From positions 1-34,009 of the forward strand of contig JAJQGP010000016.1 of the NCBI GenBank assembly GCA_021200475.1: a stretch of DNA of 34,009 nucleotides. Direction: 5' to 3'. The number at the start of each line of letters is the position of its first letter. Positions within the stretch are counted from its first letter, which is position 1. The position numbers were made by a program, and so were the translations under genes. This document shows, in pieces, positions 2,337 to 33,149 of the stretch. The notes beneath the pieces were generated by a model, which was not told the origin of the DNA, searched no databases, and saw only the letters and a list, made by a program, of their open reading frames with translations. Source of the stretch: Lachnospiraceae bacterium. GTDB taxonomy: Bacteria > Bacillota > Clostridia > Lachnospirales > Lachnospiraceae.

Positions 2337-3719
2337 ATGGCGCAGTTATGGGGCGGGCGTTTTACGAAGGCAACCGATCAGATGGTATATGATTTCAATG
2401 CTTCAATTTCTTTTGACAGGCGATTGTACCGGCAGGACATCGAGGGAAGTCTGGCGCATGTGAAAATGCTCGCGAAGCAGGGAATTCTTACAGAAAAGGA
2501 GCGGGATGAGATCATCGGGGGACTTGAGGGAATCCTTGCGGATGTGGAGAGCGGTGCGCTGGCTATCACACCGGAGTATGAGGATATCCACAGCTTCGTG
2601 GAGGCGAACCTCACAGAGCGTATCGGCGACGCCGGGAAAAAGCTGCACACCGGACGCAGCCGCAATGATCAGGTAGCGCTGGATATGCGGATGTATGTCC
2701 GCGACGCGGTGAAGGAGACCGATCGGCTTGTAAAGGAGCTTTTGAAGGTGCTCTATCGTATCATGGAGGAAAATCTGGATACCTTTATGCCTGGCTTTAC
2801 CCACTTGCAGAAAGCGCAGCCGGTGACGTTGGCTCATCACATGGGAGCTTATTTTGAGATGTTTATGCGCGACCGCTCACGGCTGGCTGACATTTATAAA
2901 AGGATGAATTACTGTCCGCTCGGCGCGGGCGCCCTGGCGGGTACGACCTATCCGCTGGATCGCGATTACACGGCAGAGCTGCTTGGCTTTGCTGGCCCGA
3001 CGAGGAACAGTATGGATTCGGTGTCCGACCGCGATTATGTGATTGAATACCTGAGTGCGCTCTCGACCATCATGATGCATCTGAGCCGCTTTTCAGAGGA
3101 AATCATCATCTGGAATTCCAATGAATATCGTTTCGTGGAGATTGACGACGCCTACAGCACCGGCAGCAGCATTATGCCGCAGAAAAAGAACCCGGACATT
3201 GCGGAGCTGGTGCGCGGCAAGACCGGACGGGTGTATGCCTCTCTGATGGGGATTCTGACGACGATGAAGGGCATTCCTCTGGCTTATAATAAGGACATGC
3301 AGGAGGACAAGGAAGGCACCTTCGACGCGATCGATACGGTGAATGCCTGCCTGCCTCTTTTTACCGGTATGCTTGACACGATGAAGTTTCATAAAGATGT
3401 GATGGAGGCTTCCGCGAAAAATGGGTTTACGAACGCGACAGACGTCGCTGATTATCTGGTCAGCCATGGCGTACCGTTCCGTGACGCGCATGGGATTTCC
3501 GGCCGCCTGGTGCTGCGCTGCATTGCGGAAAACAAAGCGCTCGATGATCTGAGCCTTGCGGAATTCCGCGAGGAGAGCGAGGCCTTTGAGGAAGATATTT
3601 ACGAGGCGATCAGTATGAAGACCTGCGTGAAAAAGCGGCTGACAAAAGGGGCGCCCGGCGAAGCGGCGATGCGGGAGGCACTCGAGCGGTATAAAGAATA
3701 TCTGGAGTCGGATCATTGA
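2337..3719 (+). CDS. argH: argininosuccinate lyase
   Basis: Splits argininosuccinate into arginine and fumarate, the last step of arginine synthesis, in the cytosol. The 460-residue length is normal for the family. The family signature GSSIMPQKKNPD begins at residue 276; this is the flexible loop carrying the catalytic serine. The N-terminal segment LWGGRFTKATDQMV and the motif HTGRSRNDQVALDMR are also typical. The start is set at ATG 2337 because CACAGGAGGA lies 7-8 bases upstream and family members begin with M-x-x-LWGGRF. The frame is open further upstream to 2277, but that stretch is a leader. There are no arg neighbours here (argG is absent), so the gene seems to be transcribed alone, possibly from the promoter at 2089. 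Confidence 0.97.
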   Translation: MAQLWGGRFTKATDQMVYDFNASISFDRRLYRQDIEGSLAHVKMLAKQGILTEKERDEIIGGLEGILADVESGALAITPEYEDIHSFVEANLTERIGDAGKKLHTGRSRNDQVALDMRMYVRDAVKETDRLVKELLKVLYRIMEENLDTFMPGFTHLQKAQPVTLAHHMGAYFEMFMRDRSRLADIYKRMNYCPLGAGALAGTTYPLDRDYTAELLGFAGPTRNSMDSVSDRDYVIEYLSALSTIMMHLSRFSEEIIIWNSNEYRFVEIDDAYSTGSSIMPQKKNPDIAELVRGKTGRVYASLMGILTTMKGIPLAYNKDMQEDKEGTFDAIDTVNACLPLFTGMLDTMKFHKDVMEASAKNGFTNATDVADYLVSHGVPFRDAHGISGRLVLRCIAENKALDDLSLAEFREESEAFEEDIYEAISMKTCVKKRLTKGAPGEAAMREALERYKEYLESDH

Positions 3720-3757
3720 GAACGTTTTCCTGACAAGAAAAGGATTATGAGAAAGCC

Positions 3758-3821
3758 GATGACTCCGTGCTTCGCACTAATGTCATCGTGGACAAAAGGA
3801 GGGCGGGCATCGCTGCCCGCC
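3758..3821. other. two adjacent hairpins downstream of argH
   Basis: Hairpin 1 (3758-3787) pairs GATGAC with GTCATC around an inner GTGC/GCAC stem. Hairpin 2 (3802-3821) is GGCGGGCA-TCGC-TGCCCGCC, eight perfect pairs. No T-run follows on either strand, so these are not canonical terminators, though they could stabilise the argH 3' end. The rest of the 513-base gap between argH and asd holds the asd promoter, its leader hairpins and repeat copy C. Short frames in the gap have no ribosome site and look non-coding. Confidence 0.45.
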
Positions 3822-3994
3822 AGAGAAAAATGTATGAAAAACAAATGTTGGTATGATGTCCTTCATTTGTTTCAATCAGTACTATACGCGCGAAATGTGT
3901 TTAGAATATGTTCAGATTATGGAAGATATGTGAAAAATACCTGTATTTCGAAAATAAAAAATCGAGAGATCGCGCGGAAAAAACTTTTTTTGTC

Positions 3995-4023
3995 TTGACA
4001 GAGCGGCAAAACGAGTGTATCTT
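3995..4023 (+). promoter_or_regulatory. sigma-A promoter for asd
   Basis: TTGACA (3995-4000), a 17-base spacer, TATCTT (4018-4023). Predicted transcription start is near 4030, giving a leader of about 200 bases before the asd start. Confidence 0.65.
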
Positions 4024-4030
4024 GTAAAGA

Positions 4031-4098
4031 CAAATGTTTGCCGTGTAAGGACAAAACATTTGGAACAGGCAAAGTACCGCGCCTGTTCTGCCGCGGCA
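4031..4098 (+). promoter_or_regulatory. structured 5' leader of asd
   Basis: Immediately after the predicted transcription start come CAAATGTTT/AAACATTTG (4031-4039 with 4054-4062), then GAACAGGC/GCCTGTTC (4063-4070 with 4081-4088), then the 10-base palindrome TGCCGCGGCA (4089-4098). Three back-to-back hairpins fit an RNA leader. I do not recognise a lysine riboswitch or T-box core, and no terminator T-run follows. Confidence 0.4.
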
Positions 4099-4112
4099 AA
4101 ACACAGGAAAAG

Positions 4113-4171
4113 GTAGCTGTTCAGAACAGCAGGCCGTTGGTCTGCGCTTTACTTTGGCTCTGAATGGATAC
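4113..4171. repeat. GTAAC-family palindromic repeat, copy C (diverged, reverse orientation)
   Basis: Aligns over its whole length with the reverse complement of copy B: GTAGCTGTTCAGAACAGCAG at the left, then a diverged core, then GGCTCTGAA near the right end. The terminal GTAAC is degraded to GTAGC and the right end is ragged. No target duplication is visible, so this looks like an old copy. It lies in the asd leader. Confidence 0.6.
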
Positions 4172-4232
4172 AAAATACTACGGGATATTTTGGACGCGGC
4201 CCGACAACATGAATATGAGGAGACAGGAAAAA

Positions 4233-5318
4233 ATGAGTCAGAAACTGAGAGTTGGCATTCTGGGAGCAACCGGGATGGTAGGGCAGAGATTTATCTCTCT
4301 GCTGGAGAATCATCCGTGGTTTGAGGTAGTGACGGTAGCGGCAAGTCCGCGCAGCGCCGGCAAGACATACGAAGAGGCAGTCGGCGGCAGATGGAAGATG
4401 ACGACTCCGATGCCGGAGGCGGTGAAAAAGCTGGTTGTCATGAATGTCAATGAGGTAGAAGCGGTCGCGGCGAGCGTGGATTTTGTGTTTTCCGCGGTCG
4501 ACATGTCGAAGGATGAGATTCGTGCGATCGAGGAGGAGTACGCAAAGACAGAGACACCGGTCGTATCCAATAACAGCGCTCATCGCTGGACCCCGGATGT
4601 CCCGATGGTTGTGCCGGAGATCAACCCGGAGCATTTTGAAGTCATCGCGTCTCAGAAAAAGCGTCTGGGGACGACCCGCGGCTTCATTGCGGTAAAGCCG
4701 AACTGCTCCATCCAGAGCTATGCCCCGGCTCTGAGCGCGTGGCGGGAATATGAGCCGCATGAGGTCGTTGTGACTACATACCAGGCGATTTCCGGAGCCG
4801 GCAAGACCTTCAAAGACTGGCCGGAGATGGTGGAAAATGTGATTCCGTACATCGGCGGCGAAGAGGAGAAGAGCGAGAAAGAGCCGCTCCGTCTCTGGGG
4901 TGTGGTTGAAGACGGCGTGATCAAACCGGCTACAGAGCCGAAGATTACCTGCCAGTGCATTCGTGTGCCGGTGCTGAATGGTCATACGGCGGCGGTATTT
5001 GTGAAGTTCCGCAAAAAGCCCACGAAAGAGCAGCTCATCGAGCAGCTGGTGAACTTTTCAGGACTTCCGCAGAAGCTGGAGCTTCCGAGCGCACCGAAGC
5101 ATTTCATTCAGTACATGGAGGAGGACAATCGTCCGCAGGTGGTTCTTGACGTTGATTATGAGAAGGGGATGGGCGTTTCCATCGGGCGTCTCCGTGAGGA
5201 TACGATTTACGATTATAAATTTGTCGGACTTTCCCACAATACTGTGCGCGGCGCGGCCGGCGGGGCGGTGCTCTGTGCGGAGACATTGAAGGCGCTTGGG
5301 TATATTGCGGCAAAATAA
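4233..5318 (+). CDS. asd: aspartate-semialdehyde dehydrogenase
   Basis: Reduces aspartyl-phosphate to aspartate semialdehyde with NADPH, the branch point to lysine/diaminopimelate, threonine and methionine; cytosolic. The 361 residues begin with the nucleotide-binding loop GATGMVGQRF (about 10-19). The active-site cysteine is Cys158 in VKPNCSIQS. The C-terminal part contains VSIGRLREDT and the substrate-binding helix SHNTVRGAAGGAVL. Overall it resembles the archaeal/fungal-type Asd more than the E. coli type. ATG 4233 is preferred over the open frame from 4164 because GAGGAGACAGG lies just upstream and MSQKLRVGILG is the natural N-terminus. It stands alone, with its own promoter (3995) and terminator (5379). 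Confidence 0.95.
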   Translation: MSQKLRVGILGATGMVGQRFISLLENHPWFEVVTVAASPRSAGKTYEEAVGGRWKMTTPMPEAVKKLVVMNVNEVEAVAASVDFVFSAVDMSKDEIRAIEEEYAKTETPVVSNNSAHRWTPDVPMVVPEINPEHFEVIASQKKRLGTTRGFIAVKPNCSIQSYAPALSAWREYEPHEVVVTTYQAISGAGKTFKDWPEMVENVIPYIGGEEEKSEKEPLRLWGVVEDGVIKPATEPKITCQCIRVPVLNGHTAAVFVKFRKKPTKEQLIEQLVNFSGLPQKLELPSAPKHFIQYMEEDNRPQVVLDVDYEKGMGVSIGRLREDTIYDYKFVGLSHNTVRGAAGGAVLCAETLKALGYIAAK

Positions 5319-5378
5319 AGCCTGGCTGAACCGCAACAAAAATTTTATTGCAAAAAAGGAAAAGAAAAATTATAATGA

Positions 5379-5415
5379 AGCTGTCGTGAGATTTCGATTT
5401 CACGACAGCTTTTTG
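5379..5415 (+). terminator. intrinsic terminator of asd
   Basis: AGCTGTCGTG (5379-5388) pairs perfectly with CACGACAGCT (5401-5410), followed by TTTTGTCTGTTTTT. Confidence 0.85.
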
Positions 5416-5456
5416 TCTGTTTTTCGAAGTACTGGAATATATGAGGGGGGATTTTC

Positions 5457-7688
5457 ATGGCAAAATCGCTGTTTATTGCAGAAAAACCAAGCGTGGCGCA
5501 GGAGTTTGCGAAGGCCCTGCATGAAGACATGCGGCGCGGCGACGGCTATCAGGAGTCGGATTCCTACGTGGTGACCTGGTGCGTCGGGCACCTGGTGACC
5601 ATGAGTTATCCGGAGGCCTATGACCCCAAATACAAAAGATGGAGCCTGGATACCCTGCCCTTTATCCCGGATCAGTTTTTATATGAGGTGATTCCTTCTG
5701 TGAAGAAGCAGTTCACGATTGTGAGCCATCTGCTGAATCGGAAGGATGTAGATACGATCTATGTCTGCACCGATTCCGGGCGGGAGGGAGAGTATATTTA
5801 CCGCCTGGTGGAGCAGGAGGCAAAGGTGCATGGCAAAAAGCGCCGCCGTGTCTGGATTGATTCTCAGACGGAGGAAGAGATTCACCGCGGGATCGAGCAG
5901 GCGAAAGACCTTTCTGCGTACGATAATCTGGCGTCAGCCGCTTACCTGCGCGCGAAGGAAGACTATCTGATGGGGATTAATTTTTCCCGCCTGCTGACCT
6001 TGAAATATGGGAGTGCGATCTCCAGCTACCTCGGAAGAAATCATGCAGTCGTTTCCGTTGGGCGTGTGATGACGTGTGTCCTGGGGATGGTAGTTCGACG
6101 TGAGCGCGAGATTCGGCAGTTTGTGAAGACACCGTTTTACCGTGTCGTGCAGTCAGTGGAGCTTCCGGGCGGGGCACAGTCATCCCTGGAAGGAGAATTT
6201 CGTGCGGTAGAGGGTTCCGACTGGTATCTTTCTCCAAAGCTTTACAGGGAAAACGGTTTTTTAAAGCGTGAAGACGCCGCGGCGCTGATTGCTTCTTTAA
6301 TGCCGGGGAGTATACCGAATGCGGGGACGGCTGGCGGAAGACAGAGTCTGACAGATACCGGTGTGCTTGCAGCCACTGCAGGCGAAACAGCCCGTATTGA
6401 TTCAATTGAGAAGAAGAAAGAAAAGAAAAATCCGCCTTTGCTCTATAACCTGGCAGAGCTTCAGAACGAATGCTCCCGCATGTTCAAAATCAGCCCCGAT
6501 GAGACGCTGCGGATCGTGCAGGAGCTGTACGAAAAAAAGCTTGTGACTTATCCAAGAACCGACGCCCGTGTTCTTTCGACTGCGGTAGCGAAGGAGATAC
6601 ATAAAAATATTGGCGGCCTGAAAAGATTTGCGCCTGCTGCGGATTTTGCGGAAGAAATTTTGTCCTCCGGTTCCTATAAGGGAATCGCGAAGACGAGATA
6701 TGTCAATGATAAGCAGATCACCGACCACTATGCGATCATCCCGACCGGACAGGGACTTAACGCGCTCGGTTCGCTCAAGGGTCATGCTTACGGTGTATAT
6801 GCGGCCATCGTGCGGCGGTTTTTAAGCATTTTTTATCCGGCGGCAGAATTTCAGAAGATTACCATGGTGACCGCGATGGGAAAAGAGAAGTTCTTCTTTT
6901 CCTTTAAAGTGCTGCTGTCAGAAGGATATTTCAAGGTAGCGGGCAACCCGAACGACCGGCGAAAGAAAAGCCAGAGTCAGAACCAGAATCAGGCGCAGGG
7001 CATGTCAGGAAGCAGCGGCGGTGCAAACACGGATGCGGTGCCGGAAGCGGAAAACGGTGCGGGCGGTAATGAGACAGACGGTGCGGAGGCGGAGTTTGGC
7101 GCAGACCTGCTGGAAGCGCTGAAAGGCTTGCGCAGGGGCATGCAGCTTCCGGTGCGTTCTCTGGGCATCCGGGAGGGAGAAACGTCCCCGCCCAAGCGTT
7201 ACAATTCCGGTTCGATGATCCTTGCTATGGAGAATGCGGGGCAGCTGATCGAGGATGAAGAGCTTCGCGCCCAGATCAAGGGCAGCGGAATCGGTACGAG
7301 TGCGACACGTGCGGAGATTCTCAAGAAGCTTGTATCCAATGAATATCTGGCACTGAATAAAAAGACGCAGATCCTGACGCCGACCCTGCAGGGGGAGATG
7401 GTTCACGATGTTGTTTACTGTTCGATCCGCTCCCTGCTGAATCCGGAGCTGACCGCGAGCTGGGAGAAAGGGCTTACCTACGTTGCGGAAGGCTCGATTA
7501 CGAGCGACGAGTACATGGAAAAGCTGGAGAATTTTATCCGTTCACGGACAGACGGAGTCATGTCCCTGCGGAACCAGACTGCGCTGCGGCCCATGTTTGA
7601 TGAAGCGGCGAAATATTATAAGAATGGGAGAGTGGCGGATGGAAATTCTGATAATAAAAAGAAAACACGAAAGATATCAAAGCAGTAG
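5457..7688 (+). CDS. topB: DNA topoisomerase III (type IA)
   Basis: Type IA topoisomerase that passes single strands and resolves replication or recombination intermediates. The 743 residues start with the TOPRIM strand LFIAEKPSVAQEFAKAL. The metal-binding segment is TDSGREGEYIYRLV (about 101-114). The catalytic tyrosine is Tyr365 in TYPRTDARVL, and the late motif GIGTSATRAEILKKL is present. A low-complexity Gln/Asn/Ser/Gly insert at about 500-545 interrupts the catalytic core region and differs in composition from the rest. No C-terminal zinc ribbon is visible; the protein ends in a Lys-rich tail. The start follows GAGGGGGG. An AT-rich island with a new promoter begins straight after the stop. 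The family call is firm; the absence of conjugation genes argues for a chromosomal housekeeping copy. Confidence 0.94.
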   Translation: MAKSLFIAEKPSVAQEFAKALHEDMRRGDGYQESDSYVVTWCVGHLVTMSYPEAYDPKYKRWSLDTLPFIPDQFLYEVIPSVKKQFTIVSHLLNRKDVDTIYVCTDSGREGEYIYRLVEQEAKVHGKKRRRVWIDSQTEEEIHRGIEQAKDLSAYDNLASAAYLRAKEDYLMGINFSRLLTLKYGSAISSYLGRNHAVVSVGRVMTCVLGMVVRREREIRQFVKTPFYRVVQSVELPGGAQSSLEGEFRAVEGSDWYLSPKLYRENGFLKREDAAALIASLMPGSIPNAGTAGGRQSLTDTGVLAATAGETARIDSIEKKKEKKNPPLLYNLAELQNECSRMFKISPDETLRIVQELYEKKLVTYPRTDARVLSTAVAKEIHKNIGGLKRFAPAADFAEEILSSGSYKGIAKTRYVNDKQITDHYAIIPTGQGLNALGSLKGHAYGVYAAIVRRFLSIFYPAAEFQKITMVTAMGKEKFFFSFKVLLSEGYFKVAGNPNDRRKKSQSQNQNQAQGMSGSSGGANTDAVPEAENGAGGNETDGAEAEFGADLLEALKGLRRGMQLPVRSLGIREGETSPPKRYNSGSMILAMENAGQLIEDEELRAQIKGSGIGTSATRAEILKKLVSNEYLALNKKTQILTPTLQGEMVHDVVYCSIRSLLNPELTASWEKGLTYVAEGSITSDEYMEKLENFIRSRTDGVMSLRNQTALRPMFDEAAKYYKNGRVADGNSDNKKKTRKISKQ

Positions 7689-7714
7689 TTTCTGTATATA
7701 TAAAGAATCAGGGG

Positions 7715-7743
7715 TTGAAATAGAAAGAAATATGTGCTAATAA
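7715..7743 (+). promoter_or_regulatory. promoter of the ATPase/nuclease-like island
   Basis: TTGAAA (7715-7720), a 17-base spacer, TAATAA (7738-7743). The leader to the ATPase start is about 60 bases. This gives the island transcription independent of topB. Confidence 0.5.
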
Positions 7744-7811
7744 ATGAGAGAAAGATATAGATTATATCATGGCAGGTTATTAGGAGAAGGATAAATTGAT
7801 TGGAGAATCTT

Positions 7812-9176
7812 ATGAATTGGTGGACATTACATGTAGAAGAATTCGGTAAGATAAAGGCGGCAGATGTTACAATAGCGCCGCTTACGATGTTTATTGGAGA
7901 CAATAATAGTGGAAAGAGCTATATGACGACATTAATATATGGGCTTCTGAATTTGTCTTTGGATCAATATGAAATGAATGAAACATCGGAAACGTATGCT
8001 GCATGTGAGCAGGTTTTAGAGAAAATCCAGAGAAAACCACAGAATTCTGACAGATATGTGTATTCTTTTTCAAAAACAGATATCAAGTGCTTCGAAATGC
8101 TCTTAAATGAAATTTTAAAGATAAATCAATTAAAATTTATCAAGGAGCTATTTAATAAAAATGTTTCTTTAAAATGCATAAATGTAGAATTTTCAGAGGA
8201 AACAATTTATCAATTAAATGTGAACTTTGCGGGAACAGATGAAAGAAAAAAAGTTCAGATTCAGGTATGGCAGGAAAAAGATTCTTTAAAACCGTTTACC
8301 TTTACCGCCAGTCATACAGCAACGGTGAACAATGGTTTATCTTTCGTTTCCAGGCGAAGTATGATTCAATTTATTTTGGAGACTTTGCTGAGAAATGGAC
8401 ATTGTGGGACAGAATTTAATTCTGCTGTTTATCTGCCTATTAGCAGGACAGGTTTTCTCCTGACATATAAAACACTAATTGGGAGCGCAATAGAAGATAA
8501 GTTTAACTTGAAAACGAGTGGTAAAAATCTTCTGACAAGACCGAACAGTGATTTTCTAAAAGGCTTGAGCAGCATTCAGGTAGAAGAGGAATGGGATGGC
8601 TATTCAGATTGTATAGAGTTTATAGAAAATAAGATTTTATGTGGAAGTATAGAAGTATCTCAGCTTCCTTCACATGATATTTTTTACCATCCGGCTGGAA
8701 GTGATGCGCAGTTACCAATGTTTGTCAGCTCAGGTGTTGTTACAGAAATGACACCATTATTGTTGTATTTGCGTTATATCGTATTTGATTCGCTGATGAT
8801 TGAAGAGCCAGAGATTTGTCTGCATCCTGAATTGCAGTGGAGAATGATGCAGCTGCTGATACGTATACAAAACAAAGGAGTGCCGGTTTTTGCTACTACT
8901 CACAGCGACTTTATGCTGCAGCATATGAATAACATGATAAAAGTAAATGAAATGCAGCATAAAGATATTTTTTTGGAGAAAAACGATTATCTGGAGTCGG
9001 ATTTACTGGAACGAAAGAATACGGCAGTATATCAGTTTGATGTAGATTCGAAGAGTGGTCAGAGCGTTGTGACGAGACTGAAGTGCGGAGATTACGGATA
9101 TGAACTTCAGACATTTTATGAAACTCTCAAAAAAATGAACCAACAGATTGATGAAATAGAAAGAACGGAGGAGTAG
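7812..9176 (+). CDS. OLD/AAA-type ATPase without TOPRIM domain, putative defence component
   Basis: SMC/ABC-like ATPase. Walker A is GDNNSGKS (residues 29-36), preceded by the usual first strand (LHVEEFGKI). An ABC-signature-like segment SSGVVTEMTPLLLYL precedes Walker B LMIEEPEICLHPE (acidic pair 331-332), and the switch histidine is in ATTHSDFML. The middle (about 60-250) is a poorly conserved helical insert containing LPISRTGFLLTYK. There is no C-terminal TOPRIM nuclease, so it is not a complete OLD protein. ATG 7812 is preferred because GGAG sits 6 bases upstream; an in-frame TTG at 7800 is the alternative. It is clearly AT-richer than topB or parE and uses A/T-ending codons, which suggests horizontal transfer. 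The next gene follows within 20 bases. Such ATPases usually partner a nuclease in anti-phage or plasmid-restriction modules; that role is inferred. Confidence 0.8.
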   Translation: MNWWTLHVEEFGKIKAADVTIAPLTMFIGDNNSGKSYMTTLIYGLLNLSLDQYEMNETSETYAACEQVLEKIQRKPQNSDRYVYSFSKTDIKCFEMLLNEILKINQLKFIKELFNKNVSLKCINVEFSEETIYQLNVNFAGTDERKKVQIQVWQEKDSLKPFTFTASHTATVNNGLSFVSRRSMIQFILETLLRNGHCGTEFNSAVYLPISRTGFLLTYKTLIGSAIEDKFNLKTSGKNLLTRPNSDFLKGLSSIQVEEEWDGYSDCIEFIENKILCGSIEVSQLPSHDIFYHPAGSDAQLPMFVSSGVVTEMTPLLLYLRYIVFDSLMIEEPEICLHPELQWRMMQLLIRIQNKGVPVFATTHSDFMLQHMNNMIKVNEMQHKDIFLEKNDYLESDLLERKNTAVYQFDVDSKSGQSVVTRLKCGDYGYELQTFYETLKKMNQQIDEIERTEE

Positions 9177-9193
9177 TTTGATTCCTGCATTGG

Positions 9194-9793
9194 TTGAAAA
9201 AAAGATTAGGTGAACTCGATAAAAACCTGGTAGAGTATTCGGATGACAGTCTACATCTGATTGAAGACAGTACGGAAGGTAAGGCAGATCTTGAATTAAA
9301 ATTACAGATGCCATGTATTCTTTTCAAACATCTGGAGGACAAAAAACTCCAATACTTCCTGATAGAAAAATGCGCAGATTTTGTGGTTCTTGAATACAAA
9401 AATGATGACTGGTTCGTTCATATTTTTGAAATGAAACGAACCATTCGTCCAAAAAGCTGGGAAACGATCAAAGAACAATTTGCCGGAGCGATTTTGAATG
9501 CACTGGCATTGACAGGAATATTCAGTATAGGTTTACATCTTTCTAATGTAATGGTTTATTCTTGCTATCGGAATGATAAGATTGATGACTCGACAAATCC
9601 AGCGAAACAGAGACTGCGAATGACTGATGTGACAGAACGTTCTTCAGAAACACAGATGTCAGCATCGGATACGGATTGGAATGAAGAGTTTTTATTAATA
9701 CCATTGAGCCAGGATACAGTAAGATGCCATCACCAAAAAATAAAACTTGATGTGGAGACTGGTAAGGGGAATTTCACACTTTCAGCAAACTGA
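9194..9793 (+). CDS. small protein with PD-(D/E)XK-like motif, putative nuclease partner of the ATPase
   Basis: I do not recognise a named family. In the 199 residues, Asp62 ends a predicted beta strand (CADFVVLEYK) and Glu79-Met-Lys81 ends the next one (WFVHIFEMKRT). The spacing D-x16-E-x-K is that of restriction-endonuclease-fold active sites. A helix with Trp and Gln (SWETIKEQFAGAIL) follows, as expected after the ExK strand. The frame is closed upstream by TGA at 9179, leaving TTG 9194 (or CTG 9185) as the only starts, although the GGAGGAG ribosome site at 9167-9173 is better placed for a TTG at 9178 in another frame. A run of seven A at 9197-9203 could join the two by a one-base slip. 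Composition is AT-rich like the ATPase. Nuclease activity is inferred from motif and context. Confidence 0.65.
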   Translation: MKKRLGELDKNLVEYSDDSLHLIEDSTEGKADLELKLQMPCILFKHLEDKKLQYFLIEKCADFVVLEYKNDDWFVHIFEMKRTIRPKSWETIKEQFAGAILNALALTGIFSIGLHLSNVMVYSCYRNDKIDDSTNPAKQRLRMTDVTERSSETQMSASDTDWNEEFLLIPLSQDTVRCHHQKIKLDVETGKGNFTLSAN

Positions 9794-9829
9794 AACTATT
9801 TTAAAAGTATATTTTGGAGGAAAAATGAT

Positions 9830-10498
9830 ATGGAAGCATGTAAAATAAAAAATCTGTACAATTTAAATGAAACAATCGCAAAGTCCCTTTTTGACGGCGC
9901 AGAGTATCCCTGGGAGGTTCTGCCAAAGATCCGTTCGTTTATTATGGAGCTGGGGGCAACCCTGCCGGAGGAGGAATACGAAAAACGCGGCGAGAACGTC
10001 TGGATTGCAAAATCTGCAACGGTAGCGCCAACAGCTTACATTCATGGTTCTGCGATCATCGGAAAAAACGCGGAGATTCGCCACTGTGCGTTCATTCGCG
10101 GCAGTGCGATCGTGGGAGAGGGCGCGGTCGTAGGAAATTCGACAGAGCTGAAAAATGTGGTTCTGTTCAATAAAGTACAGGTGCCGCACTATAATTATGT
10201 AGGCGATTCGATTCTGGGATACAAGGCGCATATGGGTGCAGGCTCTATTACCTCGAATGTGAAGTCGGACAAGAAGCTGGTCGTGGTGAAGGACGGCACA
10301 GAACGCATTGAGACTGGTCTGAAAAAATTTGGCGCGATGCTCGGAGATGAGGTGGAGGTGGGCTGCGGTTCGGTCCTGAATCCGGGAACCGTGATTGGTC
10401 CGCATTCCAATATATATCCGCTTTCCTCGGTTCGGGAAGTGGTGCCGGCGAATTCGATTTATAAGAAGCGGGGCGAGATAGCGGAGAAACAGTATTAG
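9830..10498 (+). CDS. left-handed beta-helix (hexapeptide) acyl/nucleotidyl-sugar transferase-like protein
   Basis: Cytosolic protein of 222 residues with a short helical N-terminus (1-55) and tandem hexapeptide repeats from about residue 60 (VAPTAYIHGSAIIGKNAEI, FIRGSAIVGEGAVVGNS, VLNPGTVIGPHSNIYP). These are diagnostic of the LbH transferase fold seen in GlmU C-domains, LpxA/LpxD and sugar acetyltransferases. No N-terminal nucleotidyltransferase domain is present, so it is not full-length GlmU. ATG 9830 follows TTGGAGGAAAAATGAT. GC content returns here to that of the housekeeping genes, marking the right border of the AT-rich island. It lies 17 bases before the parE-like gene and is probably co-transcribed with it. 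Substrate unknown. Confidence 0.85.
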   Translation: MEACKIKNLYNLNETIAKSLFDGAEYPWEVLPKIRSFIMELGATLPEEEYEKRGENVWIAKSATVAPTAYIHGSAIIGKNAEIRHCAFIRGSAIVGEGAVVGNSTELKNVVLFNKVQVPHYNYVGDSILGYKAHMGAGSITSNVKSDKKLVVVKDGTERIETGLKKFGAMLGDEVEVGCGSVLNPGTVIGPHSNIYPLSSVREVVPANSIYKKRGEIAEKQY

Positions 10499-31584: not shown

Positions 31585-31649
31585 TATTTGAAAAGGGTTG
31601 TGATCAGTAACTATGCTCCGGGTTATCTGTAGAAAAAATACAGAAAATA

Positions 31650-31678
31650 TTGATATTTTTTACGGTATGAAATATAAT
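31650..31678 (+). promoter_or_regulatory. promoter of the second ATPase island
   Basis: TTGATA (31650-31655), a 17-base spacer, TATAAT (31673-31678). A strong match immediately upstream of the AT-rich gene pair. Confidence 0.7.
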
Positions 31679-31714
31679 ACAAATATCAAAGTCATGCAGG
31701 AGGACGAGATCATT

Positions 31715-32821
31715 ATGTTAAAAAAGTTTAGCGTAGAAAATTTCAAAGGATTTCGTGAGAAGATTACTTTTGATCTTGGAATGCCGAGTAATTATGGTTT
31801 TATACCTGAGGTTATACAGAATGGTTGTGTTACGAAGGGAATTATCTACGGAAAAAATAGCAGCGGAAAGTCCAATCTTGGAGTCGCAATCTTTGATATT
31901 ATCACACATTTGACGGATAAAAATAAACTTCCGCAAGGGCTTGGTTTTTATTTGAATCTGGATGGGAGAAAGTCATTTGCAGAATTTGAATATATATTTG
32001 TATTTGATAATCACGAGGTTGTATATAAATACAAGAAAACAGATGTTAATGTTCTTCTCTATGAGAGTCTGTCCATTGATGGTAAAGAACTGATTTATTA
32101 TGACTTTTCTACAAATGAAGGATTTACGCTGCTTGCTGGTTCGGATACCCTTAATGCATCTATTAAGAATGAAAGCCCAATTTCAAGAGTAAAGTATGTA
32201 AATAGCAATTCTATTTTGGAAGAGAATGTTGAAAACAATATTTTCAAAAAATTTATTGATTTTATTGAACGTATGCTATTATTTTATTCCCTTGATACCA
32301 AAGGATATGAAGGCTTTATGACTGGTACCGAAAGCATAGCAGAAGGAATCATAAACAGTGGAAAAACAAAAGAATTTGAAACGTTTCTAAAACAAAATGA
32401 TATTTACTACAATTTATTTGACCAGGATGTGGATGGCAAAAAAGCACTGTATTGTAAGTTTAAAAATCAGAATGTTGATTTCTTCAAGGTTGCTTCTACC
32501 GGAACCAGGTCGCTGGCTCTGTTTTATTATTGGTATATTAAAATGCGGGAAGCATCATTTGTATTCATAGATGAATTTGACGCATTTTATCATTTTGAAT
32601 TATCCAGGGATGTAGAAAGATGCCTGATAGAGATTCCGGAAGTTCAGATTTTCACAACTACGCACAATACTGATCTTATGAGCAATGATCTTCTTAGACC
32701 AGATTGCTACTTTGAGATAAAGGATAATAAAATAAAAGCGTTTTCTCAGAAGACGGAAAAGAAATTGAGACAAGCTCACAATTTGCAAAAAATGTATAAG
32801 GCAGGTGCGTTCAGTGGCTGA
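31715..32821 (+). CDS. AAA (OLD/RloA-like) ATPase, putative defence component
   Basis: Cytosolic ATPase of 368 residues. It starts FSVENFKGFREKITFDL, the entry strand of this ATPase class. Walker A is GKNSSGKS (46-53), a signature-like STGTRSLALFYYW lies at about 260-272, Walker B is VFIDEFDAFYHFE (Asp286-Glu287) and the switch histidine is in TTTHNTDLM. The region between is less conserved. ATG 31715 follows CAGGAGGACGAG; the frame is open from 31613, but the promoter at 31650-31678 lies inside that stretch, so the upstream start is excluded. AT-rich and different in codon use from trpS, suggesting transfer. The next gene overlaps by 17 bases. ATPases of this type usually pair with a TOPRIM or HNH effector in anti-phage modules; this role is inferred. 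Confidence 0.82.
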   Translation: MLKKFSVENFKGFREKITFDLGMPSNYGFIPEVIQNGCVTKGIIYGKNSSGKSNLGVAIFDIITHLTDKNKLPQGLGFYLNLDGRKSFAEFEYIFVFDNHEVVYKYKKTDVNVLLYESLSIDGKELIYYDFSTNEGFTLLAGSDTLNASIKNESPISRVKYVNSNSILEENVENNIFKKFIDFIERMLLFYSLDTKGYEGFMTGTESIAEGIINSGKTKEFETFLKQNDIYYNLFDQDVDGKKALYCKFKNQNVDFFKVASTGTRSLALFYYWYIKMREASFVFIDEFDAFYHFELSRDVERCLIEIPEVQIFTTTHNTDLMSNDLLRPDCYFEIKDNKIKAFSQKTEKKLRQAHNLQKMYKAGAFSG

Positions 32822-33149
32822 AAAAAACTGTAAAGTCTGTATAGTTGAAGGCGAAGTCAGAGAACCAGTCATCATCAATAATATTATCCGGATATTCTTT
32901 GCTCATGATAACGTAAAGATTATTACACTTCCAGCAGGACAAAATATTTATATGCTTTGGAAGAAGCTAAAAGCGGATGATACTCCGCAAAAAATTCTTG
33001 AACTGGAGAACATGGAAATAGCAATCGGGAGAGTTTTTATCTTGAGTGCATTCCCGGAATTTTTATTAGACTATTTTGGAAAAAAGTTGTGGATTACTGC
33101 TGTGAAACGTTCCTCAAATGAACTTCAGCATTATGGGTGTAGATCGTAA
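32805..33149 (+). CDS. short TOPRIM-like partner of the ATPase, probably truncated or internally deleted
   Basis: Starts at GTG 32805 (or GTG 32814, with AGGTG 6 bases before it), overlapping the end of the ATPase gene, which indicates translational coupling. The 114 residues open with KVCIVEGEVREPVIINNI, which resembles the first strand and catalytic Glu of TOPRIM/RloB-like effectors. The later TOPRIM acidic motif (DxD) is not visible, and known effectors of this type are much longer. The C-terminal part (ILSAFPEFLLDYFGKKLW) could be the tail of the same protein brought close by an internal deletion. From 33118 another frame looks more protein-like than the end of this one, suggesting frameshift decay. 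No family is firmly recognised. Confidence 0.45.
   Translation: MRSVAEKNCKVCIVEGEVREPVIINNIIRIFFAHDNVKIITLPAGQNIYMLWKKLKADDTPQKILELENMEIAIGRVFILSAFPEFLLDYFGKKLWITAVKRSSNELQHYGCRS

Follow-up and report, generated by a model that had tools for sequence, protein, structure and literature searches.

Between topB and a hexapeptide gene of a Lachnospiraceae bacterium (GenBank assembly GCA_021200475.1) lie two AT-rich genes, and the question raised by this locus is whether they constitute a phage-defence module and, if so, whether a module of this kind has been described before. The stretch analysed, hereafter the window, comprises the 34,009 nucleotides of contig JAJQGP010000016.1 (positions 1 to 34,009, forward strand). 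An earlier note made from these letters had described an OLD-type ATPase with a small PD-(D/E)XK-like protein encoded downstream and had suggested an undescribed defence module. Our analysis indicates that the locus is probably a two-gene phage-defence system in which an OLD-ABC ATPase is paired with a PD-(D/E)XK nuclease, forming a Lachnospiraceae-family subtype of the PD-T4-4/WonAB kind.

The tight gene pair proved to be real. Two open reading frames (ORFs), that of the ATPase at 7800/7812-9176 and that of the partner at 9194-9793, were confirmed in the window with 17 bases between them. The features on which the argument depends are the following.

7812..9176, plus strand: OLD-type ABC ATPase (P0001) of 454 amino acids; the ATG at 7812 is preferred as start, the mechanical ORF beginning at TTG 7800
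7896..7919, plus strand: Walker A of the ATPase, GDNNSGKS, residues 29-36, with G29, N31 and K35 invariant in 19 aligned sequences
8790..8807, plus strand: Walker B of the ATPase, residues 327-332, with E332 invariant in the same 19 sequences
8901..8903, plus strand: H-loop (switch) histidine H364 of the ATPase, likewise invariant
9167..9180, plus strand: Shine-Dalgarno sequence GGAGG (9167-9171) with TTG 9178, which aligns with the start of the relatives and whose frame ends at TGA 9211-9213
9194..9793, plus strand: ORF of a putative small PD-(D/E)XK-like nuclease (P0002), 199 codons read from TTG 9194, assigned by motif conservation, AlphaFold2 and hhalign
9377..9436, plus strand: catalytic-type motif D62 (9377-9379)...E79 (9428-9430)-x-K81 (9434-9436), invariant in 10 aligned sequences
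7642..9816, no strand: segment without counterpart in the closest genome with an empty site (G858, locus L059); blastn homology extends to 7641 and begins again at 9817

Judged by its sequence, the product of the first gene is an OLD-type ABC ATPase, as had been proposed. It matches the PADLOC models of PD-T4-4_A (PDLC04033, E 8.1e-43, residues 6-449; PDLC04032, 8.3e-31), with the candidate family PDC-M47A close behind (4.9e-35) and weaker matches to AriA (6.8e-20), Old and GajA, and in Pfam it matches AAA_15 (1.1e-17) and AAA_21 (1.6e-8). The Walker A and B motifs and the switch histidine, described beforehand as intact, are invariant across the 19 aligned sequences, the window's among them, and so are R212 and the C-terminal residues G429 and F435. 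The AlphaFold2 model of this protein has a mean predicted local distance difference test score (pLDDT) of 77.9. Its neighbours in the PDB, found with Foldseek, are the ATPases of retron-Eco8 and retron-Eco7/Ec78, Septu PtuA, Rad50, cohesin SMC1A and Gabija GajA; among the 50 matches listed the E-values run from 1.2e-10 to 7.0e-8, and the TM-score by query length is only 0.29-0.38.

The partner has no match in the Pfam, PADLOC, NCBIfam and PHROGs models, and none at E <= 10 to the PD-T4-4_B and PDC-M47B models in particular. The D62/E79/K81 motif read by the earlier note is nevertheless invariant in all 10 aligned sequences, the window's included; were the 6 invariant columns scattered at random over 199, they would include all three of these residues with a probability of 1.5e-5. 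One of the 10 aligned family members, not the window's, matches the PD-T4-4_B model PDLC04037 directly (E 1.2e-4), and hhalign relates the partner family to the PD-T4-4_B family with a probability of 94.7% (E 5.9e-8), so that the partner is, by profile comparison, a remote relative of PD-T4-4_B. In the AlphaFold2 model (mean pLDDT 79.6) D62 precedes a strand at 63-69, E79 and K81 lie in a strand at 72-84, and a helix (88-109) and a further strand (114-128) follow; the predicted core thus shows the order of a restriction fold. Motif, predicted topology and profile link together argue for such a fold, and the idea of a small PD-(D/E)XK-like partner is supported by them.

The two genes travel together. 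In a family sample of 299 genomes, the window's included, the partner search gave 9 matches in 8 genomes, and an ATPase lies directly upstream in 8 of the 9. The ninth match (L010) is a false one in an unrelated ORF, which we take to be WhiA-like, and was left out of the adjacency count. Some ATPase match was found in 76 of the 299 genomes, in most cases a short one that falls close to the Walker B/H-loop region of a different OLD-type or ABC protein. Eight ATPase loci score above 170 bits, in seven genomes with the window's among them, and all eight are followed by the partner type; a second match in G029 (134.8 bits, residues 1-232), located where another contig ends, was taken as the other half of the same gene, split between contigs, and was not counted. 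The earlier note had asked whether the ATPase is commonly found without its partner, and none of the eight strong loci (0/8) lacks it. Moreover, in a tree of 19 ATPases the nine that have a partner of this type fall on one side of a single branch with support 100/99.

Beyond this group, five weaker but longer ATPase relatives (L019, L020, L021, L022 and L085; 53-110 bits, phmmer) each have downstream of them a reading frame that, judged by eye, shows a D...(D/E)-x-K pattern of other types; in L022 the pattern is spread across two overlapping frames at a contig end. Within the same bacterial family, therefore, partner types vary from one ATPase group to another. Still more remote ATPases were taken from six of the 37 records that the ATPase matched (34 plasmids and 3 phages), namely five plasmids and a Vibrio phage, the Enterococcus plasmid matches being left out. 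In every one of the six the next gene has 184-210 codons and matches the PD-T4-4_B or PDC-M47B models.

Two genomes present further arrangements. G278 holds three different pairs of an OLD-ATPase and a small partner (L005, L011 and L085). In G159 a Septu PtuA-like ATPase (L092 17482-18669, E 3.9e-91) is found about 6.5 kb downstream of the pair, and on the other side of the pair are an ORF with a P-loop and, presumably, a primase-like ORF.

The location of the pair was studied in a genus sample of 47 genomes. In all 20 genus genomes inspected topB adjoins the hexapeptide gene, with no ATPase or partner match at the junction and a gap of -22 to 446 bases, counted from the point where the topB match stops; the junction of the remaining 24 genomes lay outside the inspection. 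G858, whose topB is 98% identical to the window's over 728 residues, lacks a counterpart of 7642-9816, and the cassette of about 2.2 kb thus appears, by sequence comparison, to be an insertion or replacement that takes in the last codons of topB. No integrase was recognised within 7642-9816. The insertion between housekeeping genes suggested beforehand is in this way supported, and the sharp contrast in composition is borne out as well: the GC content is 0.358 in the ATPase gene and 0.373 in the partner gene versus 0.529 in topB and 0.499 in the hexapeptide gene, and at third codon positions (GC3) 0.352 and 0.335 versus 0.610 and 0.565. The partner gene is single copy in its source genome (3.2 Mb, 180 contigs). 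The promoter of its own with which the pair had been credited found no support, since a scan of 7500-9950 revealed no plus-strand promoter-like site between topB and the ATPase, and the 6 sites on both strands do not exceed the 8.1 expected in shuffles. A terminator-like site between the same two genes was not found either.

Partner matches occur in 4 of the 47 genus genomes: the window's, G878 and G874, which contain L002 and L003, and G854. In L002 and L003 (4616-6612 in both) the pair stands between topB and the hexapeptide gene as it does at 7812-9793 in the window, with one extra ORF (372 amino acids) between topB and the ATPase in L002. The identity of these two loci to the window is about 60% for the ATPase and 65% for the partner and higher, 76-92% by segment, for topB. 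With the pair in three genomes and diverged beyond topB, the junction may be a fixed site at which defence genes are exchanged. G854 has an empty junction and carries a distant pair (partner 26% identical) elsewhere in the genome (L084); the genes flanking it, at 7-597 and 3177-5829, are presumably those of an AbiEi-like regulator and of sortase/surface proteins.

A second AT-rich ATPase module was observed near the contig end, at 31613-33149 of the window. Its ATPase matches PADLOC PDC-M12A (E 7e-144), and the ORF that follows matches PDC-M12B (7.4e-21) with 114 amino acids against a profile of 251 positions and looks shortened or broken.

Is this design a new one? PD-T4-4 (Vassallo et al. 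2022; PADLOC PD-T4-4_A/B, candidate PDC-M47A/B) shares with the pair the gene order, the ATPase family and a PD-(D/E)XK-type second gene product of about 200 amino acids, remotely homologous to the window's partner by profile. It differs in that the window's partner matches no PD-T4-4_B or PDC-M47B model and in that ATPases of the window's type form a separate group. Because of the missing PD-T4-4_B match, the pair was not filed as PD-T4-4 under the PADLOC definition, although its ATPase matches PD-T4-4_A. In an excerpt of PMC9519451, PD-T4-4 is placed in a locus that resembles an integrative element.

Of the systems with a studied mechanism that we found, WonAB of Vibrio cholerae WASA-1 comes nearest. 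According to excerpts of PMC12137116, it consists of an OLD-ABC ATPase and a PD-(D/E)XK variant, depends on both genes as well as on the residues of ATPase and nuclease, aborts the infection, and inhibits translation while the genomic DNA stays intact. In the same excerpts WonA requires K34, R182, E300 and H333, WonB is toxic only with WonA present and active, which according to the authors rules out simple sequestration, and rRNA or tRNA is the suspected target. The window's pair has the same order of an OLD-ABC ATPase and a small PD-(D/E)XK variant, and its K35, R212, E332 and H364 correspond to the four WonA residues by motif and spacing, not by an alignment with WonA. The spacings from R to E (120 versus 118) and from E to H (32 versus 33) are close, whereas that from K to R is 177 in the window's ATPase and 148 in WonA. 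In the excerpted text WonAB homologues are described as occurring mainly in Gram-negative bacteria (PMC12137116), whereas the window's pair is found in a Lachnospiraceae-type genome.

Other systems are further away. Septu, Gabija, PARIS and the retron-Eco8/Ec78 effectors have ATPases of the same superfamily; those of Septu, Gabija and the retrons are among the best structural neighbours of our model, and PARIS AriA is linked by profile (6.8e-20). The effectors of these ATPases are HNH or TOPRIM nucleases, or helicases. The window has in their place a separate PD-(D/E)XK-like protein of about 200 amino acids, a comparison drawn partly from excerpts of PMC12839542. Its partner, having no PADLOC or Pfam match, does not show the TOPRIM of PARIS AriB, nor does it match PtuB of Septu, carrying E79-x-K81 instead of the HNH motif. 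Unlike Gabija, the 454-amino-acid ATPase has no TOPRIM match and the next gene no helicase match, hence no GajB. The pair does agree with the general kind of operon in which an OLD-ABC ATPase directly precedes a small PD-(D/E)XK restriction endonuclease (REase). Excerpts of PMC12839542 report OLD-ABCs with alternative nucleases (HNH, PD-(D/E)XK REase and PIN) in 594 taxa of BREX and related systems, and PMC12137116 cites Krishnan et al. 2020 for 'OLD-ABC ATPase + Novel REase' operons, whose composition is the same by description alone. For this kind of operon, the pair modelled by the WonAB authors comes from Anaerovibrio lipolyticus. A. lipolyticus is a Firmicute. Given the PD-T4-4_A match, the remote PD-T4-4_B homology and these published operons, the claim of the earlier note that the module matches no system it could name does not hold. 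In searches of the open-licence PubMed Central literature, none of which used a special term for it, we found no paper on this Lachnospiraceae subclade.

We favour a phage-defence pair of the PD-T4-4/WonAB kind because the ATPase matches PD-T4-4_A and keeps the WonA-like residues invariant, because the genes are coupled at every strong locus with their ATPases on a single branch, because the partner combines motif, core topology and profile link, because the distant plasmid and phage ATPases precede PD-T4-4_B/PDC-M47B-like genes, because an AT-rich insertion occupies a junction that is otherwise empty, and because a second candidate-defence ATPase lies in the same window. By analogy, the pair is best read as acting like WonAB. 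The ATPase would dimerise in the presence of ATP, detect a signal of infection and use its C-terminal extension to bind the small nuclease. The latter would be gated by the binding and hydrolysis of ATP and, once triggered, would cut nucleic acid and thereby halt the infected cell or the phage. The dimer, the ATPase-nuclease complex, the trigger, the substrate and the defence function are what we infer from the comparisons above.

The weak fold-search scores of the partner model weigh against this proposal, even though the restriction-like order of the core leaves the note's structural prediction standing. NucC, HamA and an enzyme of NucS/EndoMS type are among the weak matches, and they bear on the target. 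PD-(D/E)XK folds mostly cut DNA. A nuclease acting on phage or host DNA, by direct restriction or chromosome degradation, instead of on RNA or translation is accordingly a serious possibility, somewhat short of an even chance; against it stands WonAB, which stops translation with genomic DNA intact (PMC12137116, excerpts). That the ATPase merely silences the nuclease, as in a toxin-antitoxin pair, is improbable: the tight operon and the Pfam label of AAA_21, 'putative AbiEii toxin, Type IV TA system', would suit it, whereas the dependence of WonB toxicity on active WonA, in the excerpted account, speaks against sequestration. We give still less credit to a housekeeping or cell-cycle role, for which there is the precedent of the archaeal Cran1, a member of the OLD family whose role in the cell cycle is essential (PMC12796447, excerpt), and the fact that in three genomes the pair occupies one and the same junction, flanked by topB and a housekeeping gene. 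The scarcity of the pair (partner matches in only 4/47 genus and 8/299 family genomes, one of the eight being false), its AT-richness and the occurrence of remoter relatives on plasmids and in a phage fit an accessory gene.

The state of this copy requires separate consideration. GGAGG lies six bases upstream of TTG 9178, the site matching the ATG of L002 and L003, while TTG 9194 has no well-placed Shine-Dalgarno sequence. In L002, L003, L004 and L005 the partner starts with an ATG that is in frame; in the window the frame of TTG 9178 differs from the nuclease frame, which is open from 9182, and the two meet near a run of seven A. Since the likely start is out of frame, the window's copy may be impaired, and in this assembly its nuclease activity is uncertain. 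The break may stem from faulty assembly or from decay; alternatively, translation may start by coupling at TTG 9194, or some form of regulation may be involved. A classical minus-one frameshift at the A run was set aside, as its target frame stops after one more codon and the frames stay unjoined. That the pair is of a known kind with this copy decaying or silent, making little or no nuclease, seems to us rather unlikely. The frame of TTG 9178 stops at 9211-9213 where the four relatives read through, and the second ATPase module of the contig also has a shortened second gene; against this, the nuclease core is fully open from 9194 with no internal stop, a coupled start there would still yield it, and a draft of 180 contigs may contain a small assembly error. 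We are much less inclined to a further view: that a distinct Lachnospiraceae subtype, equipped with a nuclease family of its own, is carried as a cassette of two genes and nothing else at one fixed junction between topB and the hexapeptide gene, that it is probably exchanged through recombination in the housekeeping genes on either side, and that the A-run break would serve to turn a dangerous effector reversibly on and off and would not be decay.

The general design of the locus is already known; with this pair OLD-ATPase and nuclease systems gain a lineage in the Lachnospiraceae family whose nuclease family goes undetected by the defence models searched. Tools demanding both PADLOC models would miss the pair. 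Moreover, the common insertion junction offers a natural comparison between genomes with and without it.
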